Of a stretch of 22,648 nt of DNA, positions 5,415-18,817 are shown in pieces. The stretch is from IMG/VR virus record IMGVR_UViG_3300021368_001755, positions 1-22,648 of that record; one strand, given 5' to 3'. The position numbers were made by a program, and so were the translations under genes. How positions within the stretch are numbered: position 1 is the first letter of the stretch; each line of letters opens with the position of its first letter. The notes beneath the pieces are model-generated. The model worked only from the letters and a program-made list of their open reading frames with translations. It was not told where the DNA came from and searched no databases. The DNA comes from a virus.

Positions 5415-6800
5415 TTAGAAGTCATCATTTTTCTTTAAAAACTCTCGCATGTTAAGTGCTTGAGCCACAGTGTCTTTTTCTTCTTCGCCTTCTGCTTTTA
5501 TACTACTTGATCTTTTCAGTTGATCTACAAGGCTACTAGTGCTCACAGTCATTGCATCTTCGTCGCCTTCCTCTAAATCCTCAATCCTTAGTGTGTCAGG
5601 GTCAAATTTCAAGTCTACTTTTGTGCCTACACCAGCACTACTACGAGTTTTCATAAATTGTATTTGATATCTACCACGTTCACGCATAGCATTACTGGTA
5701 AAGATACCTACAACGTTGTCTGCTGTTTGTATTTTACTGATACCACCTGCAATATGATGGTGATCAAATTCTATTTCTTCTACCGCACCTCTGTTCAACT
5801 GCGATGCTGTTACCATTAGCAACTCACGTTCCATTGCTAAGTTACGCAATTCCTCAGATACAAACTTATCTTTGATAAATGTGTTCTCTGCACTAACTTT
5901 GCCATTGATTGGCATCATCAAATCCAAGTAATCAATCAGTAAGCAGTCTACTTTTTCACCACATTCTATCTCATACTCACGCAAGAACACTCTTAAATCA
6001 TTAGCAGTTACACCATTAGGCATATATTTTACCCTCAGTTTTCCTGCACCTTTTGCTTTCATACGCACTCTTAAGTCAACATCATCGATGTTTTTCATAA
6101 CTTCTCTGGTGCTGTATCCACTTACCATTGCATCAAGACGCATACTGATAAGTTGTTCACTAAGTTCTAAACTAACATACACAACATTCATGCCAGCCAT
6201 TACCCAGTTAACTGCAAAGTTCTGTAAGAACAGACTTTTACCTGCGCCGGAGCCTCCTGCGAATATCGTGATTTCGCCTCTGTTCAGTCCACCGTAAAGT
6301 TTTTGATCTATCCCCTTCCAGCCTGTGCTTGTTGCTCCTGCTTGCTTTTTGATCCATTCCAATCTCTCCTTTGGATTGTCAAAGTAATCTAAACCTAAGT
6401 CTTTTACAAGTCCTGTTTGACTTGCTGCTTTAATTTTGTTTTCAACTTCGCCGTAACTTTGTTTTTCTAACAAGTCTGTGCTTTCAATAATTGCTTTTTC
6501 TAATGCTTTGTGTCTACAAAAAGTTTCAAACTCATTTAAAAACCAATTATGATGCTCAGGAGTTACGTTATCAATGGGATCAATATCAATTTTACCAACT
6601 GCTTTAATTTGATCTATTGTGGGGATAGTATTATATGATGTGCTATGACTTTTCAACAACTCAACTGCTGGCTGAAACTTTCTACTGAACCATTGCGGCT
6701 CAACAATATTTTGACATCTAGAAAACAACATAGGATCACTAATCAGAAATCTCAAGAACATTTCTTGTATTTCGTCGTTGTACTCTGTAATATCGCTCAT
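5415..6800 (-). CDS. 41: Replicative DNA helicase, DnaB/T4 gp41 family
   Basis: 461 residues, close to T4 gp41 in length. It is a hexameric RecA-fold helicase that would unwind the fork 5' to 3' with the primase. The N-terminal helical domain (1-130) is followed by the motor: Walker A GGSGAGKS (182-189), motif with LELS at 211-214, Walker B CLLIDYLDLM (286-295), the sensor-like TASQLNRGA (331-339), and the C-terminal KTRSSAGVG (384-392) expected to supply the arginine finger. The C-terminus ends in an acidic tail. It overlaps the primase stop by four bases (ATGA), so the two are translationally coupled and share the promoter at 7781-7809. The family assignment is secure. Confidence 0.96.
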   Translation of the reverse strand: MSDITEYNDEIQEMFLRFLISDPMLFSRCQNIVEPQWFSRKFQPAVELLKSHSTSYNTIPTIDQIKAVGKIDIDPIDNVTPEHHNWFLNEFETFCRHKALEKAIIESTDLLEKQSYGEVENKIKAASQTGLVKDLGLDYFDNPKERLEWIKKQAGATSTGWKGIDQKLYGGLNRGEITIFAGGSGAGKSLFLQNFAVNWVMAGMNVVYVSLELSEQLISMRLDAMVSGYSTREVMKNIDDVDLRVRMKAKGAGKLRVKYMPNGVTANDLRVFLREYEIECGEKVDCLLIDYLDLMMPINGKVSAENTFIKDKFVSEELRNLAMERELLMVTASQLNRGAVEEIEFDHHHIAGGISKIQTADNVVGIFTSNAMRERGRYQIQFMKTRSSAGVGTKVDLKFDPDTLRIEDLEEGDEDAMTVSTSSLVDQLKRSSSIKAEGEEEKDTVAQALNMREFLKKNDDF

Positions 6801-7774
6801 AACATTCTCATTTTTACTTGTGATTTAATCTTATTATTGGTTGCGTATTTAATTATACTTGCAACCGTTAAAAGTCTGCCATATTTGGCTACTGCATCAG
6901 CGGCATCTTTGCAATCTGCATGCCAAGGAGGAAAACTAACTTCCCATCCTAGCTCTAATGCTTGCTCAATTAATTCTTTACCAGCAGTATCTCTGTCAGG
7001 ACATAGTATAACACGTTTACCTAATCTGTCAATTAAGTGTGCTTGCTCTGCTGTTACACTGTTACCCATTACACTGACGCCATCTATAAGTATTGCATCA
7101 AACACACCTTCAGTAACAATAACAATTTCTCTTTCGTTGTTTGCAAATGCATCAACATTAAATACATACCCTGGTTGTAGTTTATGCAAATACTTTGGTG
7201 TTTGCTTATCCGGGGGAGCAATATGTCTACCAGTCCATCCTACTATTTCTCCATTGTAAGTGAAAGGCACAATAACTCTACGTTTGTTTGCTATGTCTTC
7301 AAAATGCAATAATGGATATATTCCAAGTATGCCTCTGTCTTTTGCATACTGCTTTAATTCGTTATCATCTGGCAACGAGTCTATCATCTTAACATTCTCT
7401 GGTAAGTCTACTGTGTCAAACTTACTGAGATTGTACACATAAGTTGATTCGTCCTGCTCCTGTAACTCGTCAGCAACTTTTAGCAACTCCATTTGTACAT
7501 TGTGTATGTCAGCATCTGTTGCACCTAAGCGAGTAACAACCTCCTTATATTTTTTACCCATATAAGGACTCATGCCCCAACCTGTTTTGTAACCGCAGTT
7601 AAAACAGTTGAAACTTATTTTTGCACCATTACTAATCACGCCAGCACGTTTACGAGTATCGTTACACATCGGGCAGTCAAAGGTTGTCCAACCGCTGGGC
7701 GTACGATTACTTCTTACTGGCAAATTATCTACCAATAATCTGTGTACTTGCTCTACTATAGAATCCACTGTCAT
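6797..7774 (-). CDS. 61: DNA primase, DnaG/T4 gp61-type with zinc finger and TOPRIM domain
   Basis: 325 residues, about the length of T4 gp61. It would make RNA primers for lagging-strand synthesis with the helicase just downstream. The N-terminal zinc finger uses C34, C37, C57 and C60 (CPMC and CFNC). A central region (about 140-215) is followed by the TOPRIM core: TEGVFDA with E222, and CPDRDTAGK with D260 and D262 as metal ligands. The ATG at 7772-7774 lacks any Shine-Dalgarno sequence and lies six bases downstream of a sigma70 -10 box, so the transcript should begin at or within a base of the start codon. It overlaps the helicase start by four bases. Confidence 0.94.
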   Translation of the reverse strand: MTVDSIVEQVHRLLVDNLPVRSNRTPSGWTTFDCPMCNDTRKRAGVISNGAKISFNCFNCGYKTGWGMSPYMGKKYKEVVTRLGATDADIHNVQMELLKVADELQEQDESTYVYNLSKFDTVDLPENVKMIDSLPDDNELKQYAKDRGILGIYPLLHFEDIANKRRVIVPFTYNGEIVGWTGRHIAPPDKQTPKYLHKLQPGYVFNVDAFANNEREIVIVTEGVFDAILIDGVSVMGNSVTAEQAHLIDRLGKRVILCPDRDTAGKELIEQALELGWEVSFPPWHADCKDAADAVAKYGRLLTVASIIKYATNNKIKSQVKMRML

Positions 7775-7817: not shown

Positions 7818-8606
7818 TTAGTTTCTGAGTTGTACTTTAGTTATAGAACTGTTAGCATCATCAGGGTAACTTATTACTCTAACCCAATTTGCATTTACTT
7901 GGAATGTCCTATGCACGATATTACTAGTTGCACTCAATGCAATGTTGCCTGTAACATCAAACCAATCATTACTAGCATCGTCACTGTTTGGTGCACCAAT
8001 CATGCAACTTGCTTGCACCTTAACATTACCTGTGTAAGTGCTTGGATAGATAGCAACACTATGTCTAGCATGCTCGAAGTTTCGATCTAAGTTACCAAAC
8101 AAGGCACTTGAAACATACACGTTAGCACTTGCTTGCATTAATGAGTCATCTTCTTGTGTTGGTACAGGATCAAATACTGCTTGTCCTGAAATTGTGATGT
8201 CAAACGAGATATCGTTATTTTGATTTGAATAGATAGGTAAGTCCAAACCTTCTGCGTTTGTTCTTGTGATATAAATCTTGTATAAGCCTGGATCAATATT
8301 TTGAATATCGCCTTTGGTAAGGTACAACTTCACAATGCCTACATTGCTAGTGTTTTCAATCCTTTTTGTTAGTAAACGTTTCTTAGTTGCAGGGTTTACC
8401 AAGTATGCAACTAGTTCATCTGCGAAAACATTTTGAAGTTTTCTATCTCTATTTCTGATATTAAACTTAATTGTATTCGTTAATCCTTTATGTGCTATTA
8501 GTGATTTATTGTTCATTGGTCTGTTATCCACGTAAAAACTGTTGGTGGTAACCACAAGGTCCACTTCATCTTCGTACAAAAATAGTCTGTGATCGCCATA
8601 ATCCAT
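7818..8606 (-). CDS. Tail or baseplate-like virion protein (beta-rich)
   Basis: 262 residues, predicted mostly beta, no signal peptide or membrane span. The first 120 residues resemble an immunoglobulin-like domain of the kind in baseplate upper proteins: extended strands, then VAYLVNPATKKRLLTK and a pattern ending DPGLYKIYITR. The second half (about 150-262) is another beta-sandwich-like region ending with WVRVISYPDDANSS, as seen in many tail and fibre proteins. It is transcribed alone from a late promoter, with GAAAGG about 11 bases before the ATG. The next gene downstream, primase, has its own early-type promoter, so this is a late gene inserted between replication genes. A structural role is inferred from fold character and promoter class; the exact position in the virion is unknown. 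Confidence 0.65.
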   Translation of the reverse strand: MDYGDHRLFLYEDEVDLVVTTNSFYVDNRPMNNKSLIAHKGLTNTIKFNIRNRDRKLQNVFADELVAYLVNPATKKRLLTKRIENTSNVGIVKLYLTKGDIQNIDPGLYKIYITRTNAEGLDLPIYSNQNNDISFDITISGQAVFDPVPTQEDDSLMQASANVYVSSALFGNLDRNFEHARHSVAIYPSTYTGNVKVQASCMIGAPNSDDASNDWFDVTGNIALSATSNIVHRTFQVNANWVRVISYPDDANSSITKVQLRN

Positions 8607-8660: not shown

Positions 8661-9026
8661 ATGCAAGAAGTCGATCGAGAACGTTTACCATTCATAACAG
8701 GAATAAAGTATAGCGGCAACGAATATTACGGCATAGTAGTTAATTACGATAACACGATTCTTACACTTTACGATCTTTCAAAAATGCCTGACCAAGAGAC
8801 AAGGCAAGATTTTGTTAGCCTCGGCGAAACTTGGTGGTGGGAATCAAATAGACAGTTACCTATAGACGTATTCCTACATCATGAAATGAAACAATTTCAA
8901 CCCTTCCTAACCACAGTCGTGATGAAAGACGTTGAACACCTGTTCGGTCCTATGACAACTTTACAAAATCTTTTAAAGAAACGTATCAAACGTAGAGGTA
9001 TTCAACTAGTTAAGAAGACTGACTAG
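8661..9026 (+). CDS. Conserved hypothetical phage protein, the only plus-strand gene
   Basis: 121 residues, ATG at 8661 with AAAGG 11 bases upstream. The sequence is compact and soluble with a Trp-rich, acidic middle (GETWWWESNRQLPIDVF, about 53-69) and a basic C-terminus (KKRIKRRGIQLVKK). The Trp-rich segment recalls a conserved unannotated protein of marine T4-like phages, but I cannot name a function. It is divergent from the tail-like gene, and its 3' end overlaps the DnaE-like gene on the other strand by 17 bases. A TATAAT on the plus strand at 8606-8611 could be its -10 box but has no good -35. The basic tail could bind nucleic acid, which is only a guess. Confidence 0.75.
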   Translation: MQEVDRERLPFITGIKYSGNEYYGIVVNYDNTILTLYDLSKMPDQETRQDFVSLGETWWWESNRQLPIDVFLHHEMKQFQPFLTTVVMKDVEHLFGPMTTLQNLLKKRIKRRGIQLVKKTD

Positions 9027-9594
9027 CATCCTCACAAATTAAATTCAACTGTACAACGATTGCTGTAGCAAATGCAATGGCGTGTGCTTTCTTAAAATAG
9101 TATTCGCCATCTTGTGGTTTATCCCAAACAGTTTTTTCTATCTCATCATATGGCTTGCCCATAAGATGTTTCTTTGCTGGACGTATAATTGCAAGTATCA
9201 TTGCTAACTGCTCAATGCTAGTAGGCTTGTATGCTTTTACAACGTCAGCATAATTGTTAATATGGTACAGTTGACTTACAACTTCATGATGCTCTAGTAA
9301 GTTCCACATAGGCTTAGTTGCTAATAGTTGATCTAAGTGTGCTTCATCTTTTACATTTTGATACACACTGTTGTTTAGAAAGTCAACTTTAAACCAGCCT
9401 TCTTGATCTGCTTGTTTGTGATCAATTGTGCTGTAACCTTCTAGTGGAAACATTGGAATAGTTTGAAAGTATACACCTGTGTTATGCTTTGTGTGCTCAT
9501 TTGCTTTGTGTATACTCGCAGGTGTATGTTTGACTAAACGTAAAAAGTCATCTCTGTTTGCCATATCAATGTCTACGTCAAAATCAAAACCCAT
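9010..9594 (-). CDS. Miniature DNA polymerase III alpha (DnaE)-like palm/thumb protein
   Basis: About 194 residues. Landmarks of bacterial C-family polymerase appear in order. FDVDIDM (5-11) matches E. coli FDVDFCM and supplies two aspartates (D6, D8), followed by the shared RD. KHNTGV (36-41) matches KHAGGV. WFKVDFL (67-73) matches LVKFDFL and gives the third aspartate (D71). PTSIEQLAMILAIIRP (124-139) matches the thumb helix ending RPGP. FKKAHAIAFA (167-176) matches FNKSHSAAYA. Usual DnaE is about 1100 residues; PHP, most of the fingers, clamp-binding and OB domains are absent. ATG at 9592-9594 is preferred over GTG at 9600 because AAAGG lies six bases before it. It is the last gene of the lipoprotein operon and overlaps the oxygenase stop. 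Homology is inferred by eye; whether it polymerises DNA is unknown. Confidence 0.72.
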   Translation of the reverse strand: MGFDFDVDIDMANRDDFLRLVKHTPASIHKANEHTKHNTGVYFQTIPMFPLEGYSTIDHKQADQEGWFKVDFLNNSVYQNVKDEAHLDQLLATKPMWNLLEHHEVVSQLYHINNYADVVKAYKPTSIEQLAMILAIIRPAKKHLMGKPYDEIEKTVWDKPQDGEYYFKKAHAIAFATAIVVQLNLICEDASQSS

Positions 9595-10270
9595 GATCAC
9601 CCTTTGATAGTTTTCTCTGTAACCTCTTTACTAAATTTGTTATATTATAATTGCATGCAATACTGTAACGTTCGCTATTGCCTACAACTGGTGTCGTATA
9701 ATGTGTTAGACTTGCTGGAAAAATATACATGTCGCCAACTTCAGGTTCAACACTTATTTTCATTGTGCCAAAGCCATTCTTTTCATTCTCACCATACGTG
9801 AAGTTCAACTGTCCTCGTTGTTTTTCTCCACCTGCTACATTATAATACTTGCTTTCATCATTGTCAAGTTTAATATCTGTAAATATAACGCACACAACAT
9901 CTGCAGAAAAATTATGATGATGTGGCGGGTTATGTTCGCCTGCTACTTGTTTGTTATACCAAGCAGATAACATTTCAACTGCTGTTGGCAAGGAACCAGA
10001 ATGTATTGCTTCATTCCAAATGCCAGTGTCAATATCGTATACATATTCATTCATGTATTCTAATAATTTATCGTGTACAATTTTATTTGCAACTATTTGA
10101 TCGTAGAGATTAATCTCTTCTCTGATAAACCCAACAAGTCTATCAGTCATTGACTCTTCAGCAGATGTGCACATACTTTGCAACATGCTTACTATACTGT
10201 CATCAAGTTTTACTCTGGCAACTCTAGGTCCAAAGTTATCAATTACTCGTAACTTATTTTGTGAAGACAT
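9584..10270 (-). CDS. 2-oxoglutarate/Fe(II)-dependent oxygenase
   Basis: 228 residues from the ATG at 10268-10270, chosen over an ATG 27 bases upstream because AGGGA lies about five bases before it. The C-terminal half is a double-stranded beta-helix oxygenase of the prolyl-hydroxylase/TIGR02466-like kind: PPHHHNFSADVVCVIF (115-130) holds the first iron-ligand cluster (H117-H119), IFPASLTH (183-190) the distal histidine H190, and ERYSIACNY (200-208) the arginine expected to bind 2-oxoglutarate. The N-terminal part is helical and unassigned. It overlaps the DNA methyltransferase stop by 17 bases and the DnaE-like gene by 11. The substrate is unknown; such proteins in marine phages could act on proteins, nucleobases or small molecules. 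Confidence 0.82.
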   Translation of the reverse strand: MSSQNKLRVIDNFGPRVARVKLDDSIVSMLQSMCTSAEESMTDRLVGFIREEINLYDQIVANKIVHDKLLEYMNEYVYDIDTGIWNEAIHSGSLPTAVEMLSAWYNKQVAGEHNPPHHHNFSADVVCVIFTDIKLDNDESKYYNVAGGEKQRGQLNFTYGENEKNGFGTMKISVEPEVGDMYIFPASLTHYTTPVVGNSERYSIACNYNITNLVKRLQRKLSKGDHGF

Positions 10271-11375
10271 ATATTCCCTCAAACTTTTCAACGCCATCTT
10301 GTTTGCCGTTGCCTACACCGGGTCTAGTATTTAACATCATCTTGATTGTTTCAGTATGCTTGAAGCCTAACTTTTCTGCTGTTTCAATCCAACGATCAAC
10401 AACTTTGAATTCCTCTTTAGGAGTTTTATAGTCTGCGATGTTTGTTGCAAAGATGCCATCGTTATTTAAACCTTTGTGTATGTTACGCATAGTTGGTGCT
10501 ACATATCCTTCAAACCAACTGTCCAAACTATCGAATTGGTTCATGCATTGTGTAGGCTCATCTGAATACTTTTCTAAATTAAAGTATGGAGGACTACTGA
10601 AGGCACAATCAATATTTTCAGGCACAAACTCTTCACTAACACTTTGATGTATCTCTCCTCGTCTACCTCCTGCTTGTTCAATAAAATCATTTAGCAGTCT
10701 TAGGTTCTCTACTGTTTCTGTATTAGGGTCGACACCAACATAATCAAATTGAAGATTACTGCTTGTAATGCCCAAAAGCCTTCCGCCATATCCTGAACTA
10801 TAATCATATATCCTACCCCATAACACAGGGCAACAATACTCAGCAATAGCACGGGCATTCTGAGCTTTAAAATTTTGTATATTTTCTCCGGTGACCAACT
10901 CGAGAGAGCGTCTAATAGCAGTAGGATAAACAAGACTGTTGCCGTCCCGAAATTCAAAGCAAATACGAATTGCTCTGCGAAGTTTTGTATCATCATAAAA
11001 TCTGTCCTTCAAACTGTTTGAGCCACGTCCTTTAGGCTCTGCTGTCATCATGTTTGGGAATATGAATCTGTTTATTGTTTGACCTCTGTTATTGCCTAAA
11101 CCAATTTTACCATCTTTAACATTGTTATAACTACTGTCTCGGAATGTTTTAATAGCATCTACTACACCTTGTTCTGTATAATAGATAATAGGCACTAAAT
11201 TAATACTGCGATATAAATCAAATACAGCATCAATTGTGCCTTGCGGGTCTGCTTCATATGTTTCGTTTGTAAACTTATCAAACTCAGAGTACAAAGGTTC
11301 ATAGCCTGTAAATTCGTTGCCATGTATGTTGTCTGGTTTGATATTCCAAAACGAATATATTTTATCTAACATCAT
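10254..11375 (-). CDS. SAM-dependent DNA methyltransferase (SPPY amino-methyltransferase type)
   Basis: 373 residues. The C-terminal half is a class I methyltransferase: motif I DYSSGYGGRLLG (191-202) would bind SAM, DYVGVDPN (211-218) is the acidic motif II, and SPPYFNLEKY (261-270) is motif IV, the D/S-PPY signature of N6-adenine or N4-cytosine DNA methyltransferases. The N-terminal 150 residues may form target recognition; they show no known domain. No restriction endonuclease gene is nearby, so it would act as an orphan methylase, protecting phage DNA or marking it. The ATG at 11375 overlaps the MazG-like stop (ATGA); a second ATG three bases on has better spacing from GAGGA. Target base and site cannot be read from sequence. 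Confidence 0.85.
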   Translation of the reverse strand: MMLDKIYSFWNIKPDNIHGNEFTGYEPLYSEFDKFTNETYEADPQGTIDAVFDLYRSINLVPIIYYTEQGVVDAIKTFRDSSYNNVKDGKIGLGNNRGQTINRFIFPNMMTAEPKGRGSNSLKDRFYDDTKLRRAIRICFEFRDGNSLVYPTAIRRSLELVTGENIQNFKAQNARAIAEYCCPVLWGRIYDYSSGYGGRLLGITSSNLQFDYVGVDPNTETVENLRLLNDFIEQAGGRRGEIHQSVSEEFVPENIDCAFSSPPYFNLEKYSDEPTQCMNQFDSLDSWFEGYVAPTMRNIHKGLNNDGIFATNIADYKTPKEEFKVVDRWIETAEKLGFKHTETIKMMLNTRPGVGNGKQDGVEKFEGIYVFTK

Positions 11376-11626
11376 TCCTCAAATAGTTTACTCCACTTTT
11401 TTAATTTATGAAGTTTCTCTTGTTCACGTTCCTTCAAACCGGCTTCGTTAATTAAGCCTCGTTGTATTAAAACCTGCAAGAGGCAGTATACATCACCTGC
11501 CTCATCTTGTAAATTTTTGTAGTATTTTTTCTTCCCATCACTGCGAATCATTTTACTACATGCTTGTACTAGTTCACCACATTCTTCCATTGTGATTACT
11601 AGTGCCTCTATGTCTTTACTTTTCAT
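11372..11626 (-). CDS. mazG: MazG-like nucleotide pyrophosphohydrolase
   Basis: 84 residues, single-domain all-alpha MazG/dUTPase-2 type. The magnesium-binding pattern is EECGEL (14-19, E14, E15 and E18) followed by DEAGDV (41-46, E42 and D45), the expected E-x2-E then E-x2-D arrangement. The family hydrolyses (d)NTPs to the monophosphate; phage MazG proteins have been linked to nucleotide-pool cleaning or alarmone levels. It sits between the lipoprotein and the DNA methyltransferase, overlapping both by 11 and 4 bases. Length is that of short phage versions rather than the two-domain bacterial protein. The family is clear; the substrate is not. Confidence 0.87.
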   Translation of the reverse strand: MKSKDIEALVITMEECGELVQACSKMIRSDGKKKYYKNLQDEAGDVYCLLQVLIQRGLINEAGLKEREQEKLHKLKKWSKLFEE

Positions 11627-13307
11627 TGCCGTACCATATGTTTATAAATCCTGATTTGTTTTCAAAGGCTGATGGTGTAGCATTAGCCTCTTTCATCCAA
11701 TCGTGCAAGTCTGGAACAACTGTACCAATGTGCCATTGTACAACATCCATCAATCCGTCGTTGTTCATGTCTACAAACATACTGTCGGATTCAAGTTCTA
11801 AACAAACATCATTAGCATCACATATAGTATACCCTGGCAACTGTGGTAAGTCATAAGTGCTAGTTCTTACCAGTCCACCATTTTGGTCGTTTAACCATAG
11901 TGTAGGCAATGTTTCGTGTGCATAACCGTTTGCAGTAAACCAGTCCATATATCCGTCACCGTTTACATCTAATGATTGCTTTAATACGCCACCTGCTTCA
12001 GTAGTATCTGTTTCAAAAGGTGATGCTAACATTTCAAGCCTGCCATTGTTAAACTCAAACATAGCCATAAATGTGCCTTCTGCAAATTCAGTTTCACATG
12101 TATAAGTAGCAGTTGGATCGTAGTCGCCACCGTTAGCCAATGTTTTCATAGCCGCAAATGCAAGTAACACAGGTTGACTATCAGGCGTAGGATACCATAG
12201 TTCGAAATGGTCCCATGCAAATCCGCCGAAATAAGGCTTGTTGTTGTAGATTACAATTTCACGTCTGCCACAGCCAGCCTCATCATATGAACCCCATTCA
12301 ACCCATTCTAGGTTATCATACACATTCCAAAAGTCTAGTTTTGTAGGTGCACCACCGTTGAGTTGGAACAATGCAATACCGTCACCAGTACCACCGACTG
12401 CATAGTCAACGTTAATAGATTTAGTTGTACCAAAAGGACTATGTGTAAACGAATCTAGTGTTTGTAAGTATGGGTATTGTGCCATATCATACTTTACAGT
12501 ATCGTTATAATATTCATCAGCAACATCAACAAAGTTTTCACCATCTTGCCTATAAGCAACAGGTGTATCTGTCATATGATCTGCTGTCCAATATCCAAAC
12601 AAAATATCCCAAGTGTAATTGTTGTTAGGCAATGCCGCAACACCTTGTGCCCAAATAGGAGCACCAAGTTCTTTAAGTTCGTATTTGCCTTCCCAATTAG
12701 GTACAAGAATACCCTGCTGTGATGTTACATTAGAGAAGTCTGATCTATACTTACGAACAAAGTCATCTCTACTGATAATATAACTGATTAATGGTAGTCC
12801 ACCATTTGGATTTTCCAATGGTGTGAAGAAACCTGCTACTCCGCCAAACTCAGCACCAAGTTCCATATCATTTTTACCAAACAATGCTTGGTTATCAACT
12901 TTGTATCCGCCGCCGGGTTGACTAACTAATGCTAACATGGTGTTACGACTAGGTAAATCATGTTCGACTTCGTCGCCGGGCCATTCAACATCGTTTGAAC
13001 CACACAGGACAAACATCAATATATCCTGCTGATCGTCTGCATTTAGATCTACTGCAATCATGTGTTGAATAACAGATAGTGTGCAATAGTCTAATTCAAG
13101 TTCTGCTACAGCATTCGTAATGCCAATATCAGGTTCTGTGTTATACCCAATACTGCTATTAGGCATTGAATGCGGATATGATGTGCTTGGTGGTGGTGTA
13201 GGATTAAGAGGCTGTAAGCCAACTGATGGTGATGTTCCACCACCTCCGCCACAACCTACAAGCATCATAACGCATGTAGTTTGCAATAAAGTTCTAAATA
13301 ATTCCAC
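11616..13307 (-). CDS. Exported lipoprotein with FG-GAP/VCBS-like DxNxDGxxD repeats
   Basis: About 563 residues. The N-terminus is a lipoprotein signal peptide: RTLLQTTCVMMLVGC with lipobox LVGC, then Gly5 and a Ser/Pro-rich linker. The mature part has calcium-binding-like repeats of beta-propeller type, including VDLNADDQQD, LDVNGDGYMD and VDMNNDGLMD, so an extracytoplasmic propeller is likely. I chose GTG at 13305-13307 because GGGAG lies eight bases upstream; an in-frame TTG at 13322 would add five residues including Lys-Arg. It is first after an exact-consensus sigma70 promoter, implying strong early expression, and overlaps mazG by 11 bases. A surface lipoprotein made early could block superinfection or alter the envelope; that role is inference. 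Homology looks bacterial, suggesting acquisition from a host. Confidence 0.85.
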   Translation of the reverse strand: MELFRTLLQTTCVMMLVGCGGGGGTSPSVGLQPLNPTPPPSTSYPHSMPNSSIGYNTEPDIGITNAVAELELDYCTLSVIQHMIAVDLNADDQQDILMFVLCGSNDVEWPGDEVEHDLPSRNTMLALVSQPGGGYKVDNQALFGKNDMELGAEFGGVAGFFTPLENPNGGLPLISYIISRDDFVRKYRSDFSNVTSQQGILVPNWEGKYELKELGAPIWAQGVAALPNNNYTWDILFGYWTADHMTDTPVAYRQDGENFVDVADEYYNDTVKYDMAQYPYLQTLDSFTHSPFGTTKSINVDYAVGGTGDGIALFQLNGGAPTKLDFWNVYDNLEWVEWGSYDEAGCGRREIVIYNNKPYFGGFAWDHFELWYPTPDSQPVLLAFAAMKTLANGGDYDPTATYTCETEFAEGTFMAMFEFNNGRLEMLASPFETDTTEAGGVLKQSLDVNGDGYMDWFTANGYAHETLPTLWLNDQNGGLVRTSTYDLPQLPGYTICDANDVCLELESDSMFVDMNNDGLMDVVQWHIGTVVPDLHDWMKEANATPSAFENKSGFINIWYGNEK

Positions 13308-13315
13308 TCTTTTTA

Positions 13316-13320
13316 CTCCC
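13316..13320 (-). promoter_or_regulatory. Ribosome binding site that decides the lipoprotein start
   Basis: GGGAG on the minus strand, eight bases before the GTG at 13305-13307 and overlapping the alternative TTG at 13320-13322, which has no upstream site of its own. Confidence 0.65.
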
Positions 13321-13343
13321 AAAGTAACTTAATAAGTTCATAT

Positions 13344-16415: not shown

Positions 16416-16672
16416 TACCATTTATCCTTGTTAATACCTGCATCATCAAATGTGCCATCAGTTCTTTGTTTCCTGTAATCAAAAGGAACACTCACACTGT
16501 ATGGACTTGATAGATCGTTGCCTACATACTGGAAACGTTTGTAGACAGTTGACGGATTTACATGGTCAAAGTATCGTATTACCCATGTATCTTGCTTTTC
16601 TGCGTATGCTTCGACTTCTTCATATGTACCGTAAACTAGTTCTTCATTATCTAACTTTGCAAGTTCTATCAT
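16415..16672 (-). CDS. Small hypothetical protein (85 aa)
   Basis: ATG at 16670-16672 overlaps the nucleosidase stop by four bases (ATGA), and its own stop overlaps the gp62-like start by one base, so it is locked into the operon by coupling. It is soluble, aromatic-rich and mildly acidic, with a probable alpha-beta start (ELAKLDNEELVYGTYEEVEAY cut here into ELAKLDNEEL and VYGTYEEVEAY) and a beta-rich middle (WVIRYFDHVNP). No cysteine, signal or known motif. Family not recognised. Confidence 0.65.
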   Translation of the reverse strand: MIELAKLDNEELVYGTYEEVEAYAEKQDTWVIRYFDHVNPSTVYKRFQYVGNDLSSPYSVSVPFDYRKQRTDGTFDDAGINKDKW

Positions 16673-17190
16673 TTCTCATTGTAAATATTAATAAAATGCT
16701 CTTCGCCTTTGGCGACATTCTCTAGCCAACTAGTGTCTGCAGAATCGTCAGCACTATCGCTAACATACTTATAACACTTAAATTCAACCTGTGCTTGTTG
16801 GCATGCTTTAGCAATAGCAAAGGCCTCCATGTCTACAACATGGGCTGGGTGTTCTAAATTAGGATCTGTAACGAAGTTATCTCCTGTGCTACAAGTGTAA
16901 CCTACGCCCATTGATATTGTAATAGGATCTTTTGGCAACATAAGTTCTAGTGCTTCTGGACATTTACCCTTATCACGTTCTACAAAGTTTACCATTTCGT
17001 GGCAACCATGCTCAAGTTTAATTCCACCTGCTGTACCAAAGTTCCACACAGTTTCTGGCTTATATTTTTGTATAAGTCTTGCGGCTGTGATAGCGGCATT
17101 AATTTTACCTACACCTGTAAAGAATACATTATCCCACTTAGCCATGTTAGGTGCTTCGTTTTCTAATGCAATCAAAATGATGTCTTTCAT
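16669..17190 (-). CDS. MTA/SAH nucleosidase-like protein (Pfs/PNP family, short)
   Basis: 173 residues against about 230 for bacterial MTA/SAH nucleosidase. The family cleaves the N-glycosidic bond of S-adenosylhomocysteine or methylthioadenosine, freeing adenine. Visible landmarks: an early Glu pair ENE (E10, E12) at the place of the catalytic Glu12, GVGKINAA (26-33), NFGTAGG (50-56), STGDNF (101-106), VDMEAFAIA (119-127) with the ribose-binding M121-E122, and YVSDSAD (142-148) with catalytic D145. All three key acidic residues are present; about 60 residues are missing from the middle and the C-terminal helix is shortened. Its start abuts the apt stop with GGAG five bases upstream. Alternative: a nucleoside phosphorylase-like enzyme with another substrate. 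Confidence 0.82.
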   Translation of the reverse strand: MKDIILIALENEAPNMAKWDNVFFTGVGKINAAITAARLIQKYKPETVWNFGTAGGIKLEHGCHEMVNFVERDKGKCPEALELMLPKDPITISMGVGYTCSTGDNFVTDPNLEHPAHVVDMEAFAIAKACQQAQVEFKCYKYVSDSADDSADTSWLENVAKGEEHFINIYNEK

Positions 17191-17724
17191 TTATTCTCCT
17201 TCGTATTCCAACAGATACTCTACGTTATATCCTGCATCTCTTATTATAGCACTTCCTCCTAGATCGGGCAAGTCTATAATTGCAACAATTAGTATATCTT
17301 CTTTTGGAATGTTCCAATTCTCATGTACAAGATCAGCACAGGCCATTGCTGTGCCTCCTGTAGCAATGAGATCATCTACAATGACAACTTTGCCTTCAAT
17401 AGGCGAAATCTTTTGTATATGTATTTCAGTTTCGCCATACTCTAACTTAAATGCTTTACTAAAAGTTTCGTTTGGCAGTTTGCTTGGCTTTCTTGCTAGT
17501 ATAAATGGCAAGTCAAATTTGGTTGCAACTGGTGCACCAAAAACAAAGCCTCTGCTTTCAATACCAACAACTGTGTCAGCATCAAACCTTGCTGTTGCAA
17601 CAGACAACCTTGTTACTGTATGGTTGAATGCTTCAGCATTGTCAGTGATACTTGTGATGTCTCTAAACTGTACTCCTGGTATAGGATAGTCCGGGACTGT
17701 TCTTATAATGCTTTTAAGATCCAT
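17191..17724 (-). CDS. apt: Adenine phosphoribosyltransferase
   Basis: 177 residues from the ATG at 17722-17724. A longer frame begins at 17775 but the family starts at the LKSIIRTVPDYPIPGVQFRD block, and the shorter start has GGA eight bases upstream. Makes AMP from adenine and PRPP. The PRPP loop is VVIVDDLIATGGTA (about 120-133), with the adenine-pocket region GIESRGFVFGAPVA (about 60-73) and the hood loop RKPSKLPNETFSKAF. Length matches bacterial Apt. It overlaps metK by 11 bases and abuts the nucleosidase-like gene, whose product adenine would be its substrate. A phage-borne apt beside metK and a nucleosidase is uncommon. Confidence 0.95.
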   Translation of the reverse strand: MDLKSIIRTVPDYPIPGVQFRDITSITDNAEAFNHTVTRLSVATARFDADTVVGIESRGFVFGAPVATKFDLPFILARKPSKLPNETFSKAFKLEYGETEIHIQKISPIEGKVVIVDDLIATGGTAMACADLVHENWNIPKEDILIVAIIDLPDLGGSAIIRDAGYNVEYLLEYEGE

Positions 17725-18817
17725 CGAACAAGTCCGTTTGTTCCCATGGAAGATCTTCTTTACCAAAGTGTCCATAGTTGGTTGTAGTTGTTAAGTCTAA
17801 ATCAAACAAACCAAACCTATCAATAATACCTTTTGGTGTTAGGTCAACATTTTCTTCAAACCACTCAACTAAGTCACTTCTAACTTCGCCGTCTGCATAC
17901 ACATACAAACTAGTTGGCTCTACAACGCCAATAGCATAACTTAGTTGCACTGTGGCATTCTTTGCTTTGCCACTTGCTACAATGTTCTTTGCCAAATAGC
18001 GAGCCATATATGCTGCTGATCTGTCGACTTTAGTGCAATCCTTACCTGAAAAAGCACCGCCGCCATGTGGAGCATAGCCGCCATAAGTATCAACAATAAT
18101 TTTTCGTCCAGTAAGTCCAGTATCTCCATCCGGTCCTCCAATTACAAATCTTCCAGTAGGGTTGATTAAAAATTCAGTGTCTGACAAATCAAACGTGCCG
18201 TCTAATTCATCTAAGATAATTTGTTCAACTCTATCACGTACAGCCTGTATACTCATTTCATCAGAGTGTTGTGTGCTACAAACAATCTTAGTAATACCAG
18301 TAGGAGTGTTTACGTCATCATATGACATAGTTACTTGAGACTTACTGTCTGGTCCAAGCCATGTTTCTCCATTACGTCTTTCTTGTGCAAGTCTACGCAA
18401 GATCCTATGACTGTAGTAAATAGCACTTGGCATTAAGTTTGGCGTTTCGTCGCATGCATAACCAAACATTAGACCTTGGTCACCTGCACCAAACTCGTCT
18501 GTGCCTAATGCAATGTCAGGCGATTGTCCATGTAGTTCATTGTAAACTTTTAAAGACGCCCAATGGAAACCATCTTGTTCATACCCAATATCTTTAACTA
18601 TATCTCTAACAATGTTTTCAATGTGTGCTTTATCAAAGCGATCACTTTTATATTCACCTGCTAGTGTAACCATATTAGTTGTCACTAATGTTTCAACTGC
18701 GGCTCTGTGATTTAGTTTTCCATCTATTAAGTATGTTGCGACTGCATCTGAAATTTGATCTGCAATCTTGTCTGGGTGTCCTTCCGACACACTCTCACTC
18801 GTAAATTGATACGGCAT
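17714..18817 (-). CDS. metK: S-adenosylmethionine synthetase
   Basis: 367 residues, slightly shorter than E. coli MetK (384). Makes SAM from methionine and ATP with release of PPi and Pi. Family blocks are intact: TSESVSEGHPDKIADQISD (6-24) with H14 and K17 at the ATP site, GAGDQGLMFGYA (110-121) in the methionine/ATP region, GGPDGDTGLTGRKIIVDTYG (227-246), and the phosphate loop GGGAFSGKDCTKVDRS (252-267). No internal stop or missing block, so it should be active. AGGA lies just before the ATG at 18815-18817. It is followed without a gap by apt and the nucleosidase-like gene, with two SAM-using methyltransferases further down. Confidence 0.97.
   Translation of the reverse strand: MPYQFTSESVSEGHPDKIADQISDAVATYLIDGKLNHRAAVETLVTTNMVTLAGEYKSDRFDKAHIENIVRDIVKDIGYEQDGFHWASLKVYNELHGQSPDIALGTDEFGAGDQGLMFGYACDETPNLMPSAIYYSHRILRRLAQERRNGETWLGPDSKSQVTMSYDDVNTPTGITKIVCSTQHSDEMSIQAVRDRVEQIILDELDGTFDLSDTEFLINPTGRFVIGGPDGDTGLTGRKIIVDTYGGYAPHGGGAFSGKDCTKVDRSAAYMARYLAKNIVASGKAKNATVQLSYAIGVVEPTSLYVYADGEVRSDLVEWFEENVDLTPKGIIDRFGLFDLDLTTTTNYGHFGKEDLPWEQTDLFDGS

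Follow-up and report, generated by a model that had tools for sequence, protein, structure and literature searches.

A 194-residue phage DnaE relative is probably the catalytic half of a two-gene C-family DNA polymerase

C-family DNA polymerases are known as huge single chains. The stretch of viral DNA analysed here (22,648 nucleotides, IMG/VR virus record IMGVR_UViG_3300021368_001755, positions 1 to 22,648; hereafter the window) encodes a protein of only 194 amino acids that had been predicted, from the sequence alone, to keep the active-site landmarks of the bacterial polymerase III alpha subunit DnaE. What can so small a relative of a replicative polymerase be doing in a marine phage? The original prediction offered a stand-alone minimal nucleotidyltransferase, a decoy that binds host replisome parts, or a relic. 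We arrive at a different answer, to which we give a probability of about 0.78: the protein, called B here, is the catalytic half of a two-gene C-family enzyme whose other half, A, is encoded elsewhere in the genome. The features of the locus are collected in Table 1.

Table 1. Gene B, its motifs and its neighbours in the window. Residues are numbered on the 194-amino-acid protein; invariance refers to 156 distinct homologues of B.
Feature	Coordinates	Strand	Remarks
DnaB-like replicative helicase (T4 gp41-like)	5415..6800	-	downstream of B at 65/65 loci
DNA primase (T4 gp61-like, Toprim)	6797..7774	-	downstream of B at 77/78 loci with enough flank
phrog_14467 'virion structural protein'	7818..8606	-	downstream of B; kept at 136/167 loci
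Convergent small gene, phrog_11637, no assigned function	8661..9026	+	121 aa; 17-nt overlap with 3' end of B
Gene B, probable C-terminal catalytic half of split minimal Pol III alpha	9010..9594	-	194 aa, phrog_11778; start ATG 9594-9592, stop 9012-9010
FKKAH, equivalent of DnaE fingers motif FNKSH	9082..9096	-	H171 = E. coli H760, invariant 156/156
RPxK, R138-P139-x-K141	9172..9183	-	E. coli R639, P640, then P642; invariant 156/156
KVD, K69 and D71 (third catalytic Asp)	9382..9390	-	= E. coli K553, D555; invariant 156/156
KHxxGV motif, H37 and G40	9475..9486	-	= E. coli H511, G514; invariant 156/156
DVDID, D6-D8-D10	9565..9579	-	= E. coli D401, D403, D405; no substitution
2OG-Fe(II) oxygenase	9584..10297	-	directly upstream of B, overlapping B start by 11 nt

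Gene B is preceded by an AAAGGG Shine-Dalgarno sequence 5 nt 5' of its ATG, and its product is a direct member of phrog_11778 'DNA polymerase' (E = 1.5e-64 over 185 residues), from which it shows no difference. As a single sequence it resembles DnaE only weakly, with E = 0.16 against the Pfam DNA_pol3_finger model and E = 0.0028 against the full-length phage DnaE family phrog_405. Single-sequence searches of Pfam, NCBIfam and PDB (phmmer) gave no significant DnaE match, nor did a gene B profile searched against PDB sequences; the best family member reached E = 6e-5 with DNA_pol3_finger. The DnaE identity of B is settled only by profile-profile and structure comparison. The family itself is large: tblastn recovered 63 phage records, each with at least 80% query cover and less than 60% identity, from phages of the 121Q/RaK2/GAP32/CBB, PA5oct, Atu_ph07, XacN1 and SCTP-2 types and from two Alishewanella phages (141 kb). 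A scan of viral contigs found 287 relatives, and a wider profile scan at least 559.

Profile-profile comparison of 70 family members with eight DnaE/PolC sequences gave E = 1.2e-8 at a probability of 95.6%. The AlphaFold model of B folds confidently as one domain (mean pLDDT 94.6), and when it was compared with PDB chains the top 14 rows were all DnaE or PolC (Z 6.5-10.1, 176-192 residues aligned), led by Taq DnaE with Z 10.1 and 192 of 195 residues aligned; the best unrelated fold reached Z 4.0. The model aligns to residues 396/399-784 of E. coli DnaE, 457-841 of Taq DnaE, 415-808 of M. tuberculosis DnaE and 966-1301 of PolC. It thus carries the polbeta-like palm with three catalytic aspartates that is a feature of C-family polymerases. 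The 194-residue protein is a true relative of DnaE and PolC.

Conservation within the family singles out the same residues. We aligned 156 distinct homologues (198 sequences) and found H37, G40, K69, D71, W97, A131, R138, P139, K141 and H171 to be invariant; D6, D8 and D10 show no substitution, with one row gapped there. D6, D8 and D71 correspond to the catalytic D401, D403 and D555 of E. coli. K141 is constant in the phage family and was not found in the DnaE set. Against its three closest relatives, gene B has dN of 0.075-0.095 and dS of 0.88-1.16, a ratio of ~0.08. Much of the original prediction is borne out by these results: all five landmarks lie in the 194-residue frame in DnaE order, the match is beyond chance and extends to the palm fold, the three catalytic aspartates are kept, and the gene is under strong selection. 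The helix ending in ILAIIRP had been assigned to the thumb, an assignment that has to be corrected. This stretch aligns with E. coli ~626-642, which we take from published domain limits to be the start of the fingers, and the thumb is precisely what is missing.

B lacks several parts that bacterial polymerases hold in one chain. The thumb is absent (gap at E. coli ~425-508), as are the middle fingers (gap at ~650-740) together with G682, Q687, E688 and R709, which are invariant in the DnaE set. The GS/GRGS motif, present in every DnaE and PolC compared, is not found in the B polypeptide and is carried by the separate gene A. As predicted, there is no PHP, clamp-binding or OB domain and only a small part of the fingers: B corresponds to E. 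coli 396-784 and A to 279-396, and the pair contains nothing of DnaE beyond ~784. With the thumb and middle fingers absent, the grip on DNA and some of the surface that binds dNTP must be supplied by something else or have been lost. Since the catalytic residues seem to be kept while these functions are not, the chemistry of A and B is likely to be phosphoryl transfer to a nucleic-acid 3' end.

The partner gene was recognised through PF07733, which in seven of seven complete relatives matched a second short open reading frame and not gene B (profile positions ~16-98); three more genomes with gene A were found after these seven. A proteins are ~170-180 residues long and carry the GRGS motif, whose R146, G147 and S148 are invariant in 75 proteins. 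The family matches DnaE in profile comparison with E = 2.2e-11, and a search of PDB with A finds DnaE at 1.3e-5. The AlphaFold model of A (pLDDT 90.9) matches DnaE and PolC with Z 7.6-12.1, the next fold reaching 2.3. Its residues 78-179 align to E. coli 279-396, and the model aligns to M. tuberculosis DnaE 306-415, Taq DnaE 294-458 and PolC 822-966. Residues 1 to ~77 of A (L140:5770-6000) had no structural match in a search with the whole model.

Gene A stops at the counterpart of DnaE 'FERFLN', directly ahead of the Asp motif that opens B, and in all 138 A reading frames examined the stop lies no more than 6 residues from the profile end. The A and B alignments therefore meet to within a few residues, which puts the border between the two halves inside the palm, with the nucleotide-binding motif on one side and the metal-binding motif on the other. 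No reading frame was hit by the two profiles together, and no natural A-B fusion was found.

Genomes with one half mostly have the other as well. Gene A is present in all ten cultured genomes picked for B, and the cultured phage RAS14, which was picked for A, contains B (E = 4e-58). Among 11 uncultivated contigs with A and a length of 200 kb or more, all but one contain B as well. The two genes are never close: the distance is ~11 kb in a 141-kb genome and ~30 kb in PBECO4, and elsewhere it exceeds 100 kb, as on a 275-kb contig (G068) that combines an A of the marine clade with a B 52% identical to that of the window. The A profile did not find A on the window or on 19 related contigs (20-104 kb), and PF07733 likewise did not on 12 of them; the clamp loader, sought on the same contigs as a guide to A, was not found either. 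The distance between the genes explains why fragments of the window's clade, at most 104 kb long, show B without A.

We infer that A is present in the window's own genome, although the distance alone is no proof of it. The window's clade and an A-bearing contig share genes, a link that is suggestive and not proof, as the matches are only 66-76% and concern mainly methylase and thymidylate synthase. On contigs with A only, B was not found even with relaxed limits and PF17657. The six of these checked for B's convergent neighbour were without it as well and are therefore probably incomplete in that region. One 359-kb viral contig (G025, locus L129) has gene A and neither a detectable B nor the convergent neighbour; its genome may be incomplete, or B may have been lost from its lineage. 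This contig speaks against the two-gene reading, as do the lack of A on the window and its nearest contigs and the missing thumb and middle fingers.

Both genes keep company with replication genes. The original prediction placed B in an operon of lipoprotein, MazG, methylase and oxygenase genes, an arrangement that proved to be local: the oxygenase lies upstream of B at 22 of 179 loci and is not a conserved neighbour, while primase and helicase follow B almost without exception (Table 1). Cultured phages whose B is only 37-52% identical to that of the window share this primase-helicase order. A homologue of the convergent phrog_11637 gene overlaps or abuts the 3' end of B at 165 of 194 loci, and its product is a possible functional partner of B. 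Downstream of gene A come a GroES-like gene (187 of 192 loci) and a gp44-like clamp loader (130 of 152). All of these counts include many close relatives and are not counts of independent events. A family B polymerase is encoded in 10 of 10 cultured (complete) genomes checked.

Several further observations concern the same regions. Behind A the order is a ~120-aa gene without assigned function, a GroES/Cpn10-like gene and the gp44-like clamp loader (L140:6328-8095, L129:6540-8312), so that a co-chaperonin gene is fixed between two replication genes. PBECO4 and XacN1 encode a stand-alone DnaQ-type exonuclease within a few kb of B (L088:3-620, L090:6868-7461); that it might proofread for the split polymerase is speculation. 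Near the replication genes of the window, positions 11616-13322 (minus strand) encode a 568-aa lipoprotein-like protein with weak FG-GAP repeat matches. An S-adenosylmethionine synthetase, a phosphoribosyltransferase and a nucleoside phosphorylase-like gene stand in a row at 16669-18817 (minus strand). With the methylase and ThyX genes, also in the window, this row may form a set for SAM and purine salvage.

In a minimal C-family DNA polymerase split in this way, B would be the C-terminal subunit and provide the metal-binding aspartates, the KH..G and KVD elements from the palm and, from the fingers, the first helices and the FxKSH helix. A (~175 aa) would contribute the palm helices that bear GRGS, the motif for holding the incoming nucleotide. 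A and B would form a heterodimer, meeting where the chain is continuous in E. coli DnaE, near residues 396-399, and so rebuild one palm. From the gene neighbourhoods we would place the pair at the phage replication fork, where B would go with the primase-helicase, A with the clamp loader, and the family B polymerase would work alongside; the pair might extend primers, synthesise one strand or serve in repair. We lean towards templated DNA polymerisation as the activity of the pair.

An active pair need not copy a template. With its dNTP site kept, and with the thumb that grips the template and the middle fingers gone, the heterodimer could instead be a nucleotidyltransferase that adds a few nucleotides to ends or primers. 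This reading shares the split palm with the one that we prefer and differs from it only in activity. The catalytic aspartates and GRGS are invariant, yet neither the thumb nor the YGxxxYQEQ...LRRAMGKK part of the fingers is left, and the phages also encode a full family B polymerase; all of this would suit non-templated addition. However, FxKSH and KH..G are kept, and the primase, helicase and clamp loader neighbours fit templated replication equally well. We consider non-templated addition possible, if somewhat unlikely.

The explanations originally offered for B fare worse. A minimal nucleotidyltransferase made of B alone would agree with the confident single-domain fold and the three aspartates, but B is only half of an active site: complete genomes with B also carry A, and because GRGS lies in this second, distant gene in every complete relative tested, a one-protein enzyme is very improbable. 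That B is a decoy or scaffold without catalytic activity, made to bind parts of the host replisome, is likewise very improbable. Replisome inhibitors are indeed encoded by phages, but the alignment ends at E. coli ~784, short of the DnaE regions that contact the clamp, tau and OB ligands, the active-site residues are invariant, and the neighbours are phage replication genes. That B is a decaying relic of an acquired dnaE, as its shortness and truncation relative to bacterial DnaE might suggest, can practically be dismissed: dN/dS is ~0.08, homologues number in the hundreds, the split point is constant and the catalytic residues do not vary.

Returning to the split polymerase, we tentatively add a narrower proposal, which we regard as doubtful. 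A and B could be a thumb-less two-subunit enzyme in the service of the primase-helicase, which extends or trims primers and hands them over, via the clamp loader, to the family B polymerase. If true, this would be a phage counterpart of the eukaryotic division of labour between primase and polymerase, built on a bacterial-type palm. The fixed links to primase-helicase and clamp loader show where the function of the pair is to be sought, and since both proteins are small (~175-195 aa) with confidently predicted folds, their interaction and activity are directly testable.

A split minimal Pol III alpha has already been described computationally in 'group 2.2' jumbo phages, with Atu_ph07 named among them, and was proposed as a model of ancestral Pol III (Iyer et al. 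2021, PMC7824862). The window protein joins this kind of enzyme, and the same conclusion was reached independently in that study. Like the protein described there, B is a stand-alone C-terminal subunit with the Mg-binding aspartates, and Atu_ph07 is among the relatives found here. The described kind also has an N-terminal GRGS subunit from a separate gene and a family B replicative polymerase in the same genome, features that we see in cultured relatives of the window (11 and 10 genomes, respectively). Whereas those jumbo phages exceed 200 kb, the window is a 22.6-kb uncultivated fragment, and the B family also occurs in the 141-kb Alishewanella phages. Gene A of CBB had earlier been annotated as a truncated alpha subunit (PMC5259590). 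PF07733, reported from roughly half the members of a single marine jumbo phage cluster and from no other cluster (Weinheimer & Aylward, PMC9123017), is possibly gene A. We found no experimental study of the split enzyme in the open-access literature. Our analysis adds the split point, the residue invariance, the co-occurrence of the two genes, their replication-gene neighbourhood and the fold evidence.

Compared with bacterial DnaE and PolC, B shares the palm topology, the three catalytic aspartates and the KH..G, KVD, RP and FxKSH motifs, but it is only 194 residues long, is without PHP, thumb, middle fingers, clamp-binding and OB parts, and leaves GRGS to another gene. Cyanobacterial DnaE is also split between two genes, as full-size halves that are rejoined by intein protein splicing. 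Encoding by two genes is common to both systems, while inteins and full size are found only in cyanobacteria: the A reading frames end within 6 residues of their DnaE-like part and the B frames start only shortly ahead of theirs, so that an intein would not fit. A C-family palm that is cut inside its active site, and kept so in hundreds of phage genomes, would show how small the working core of the bacterial replicase can be.
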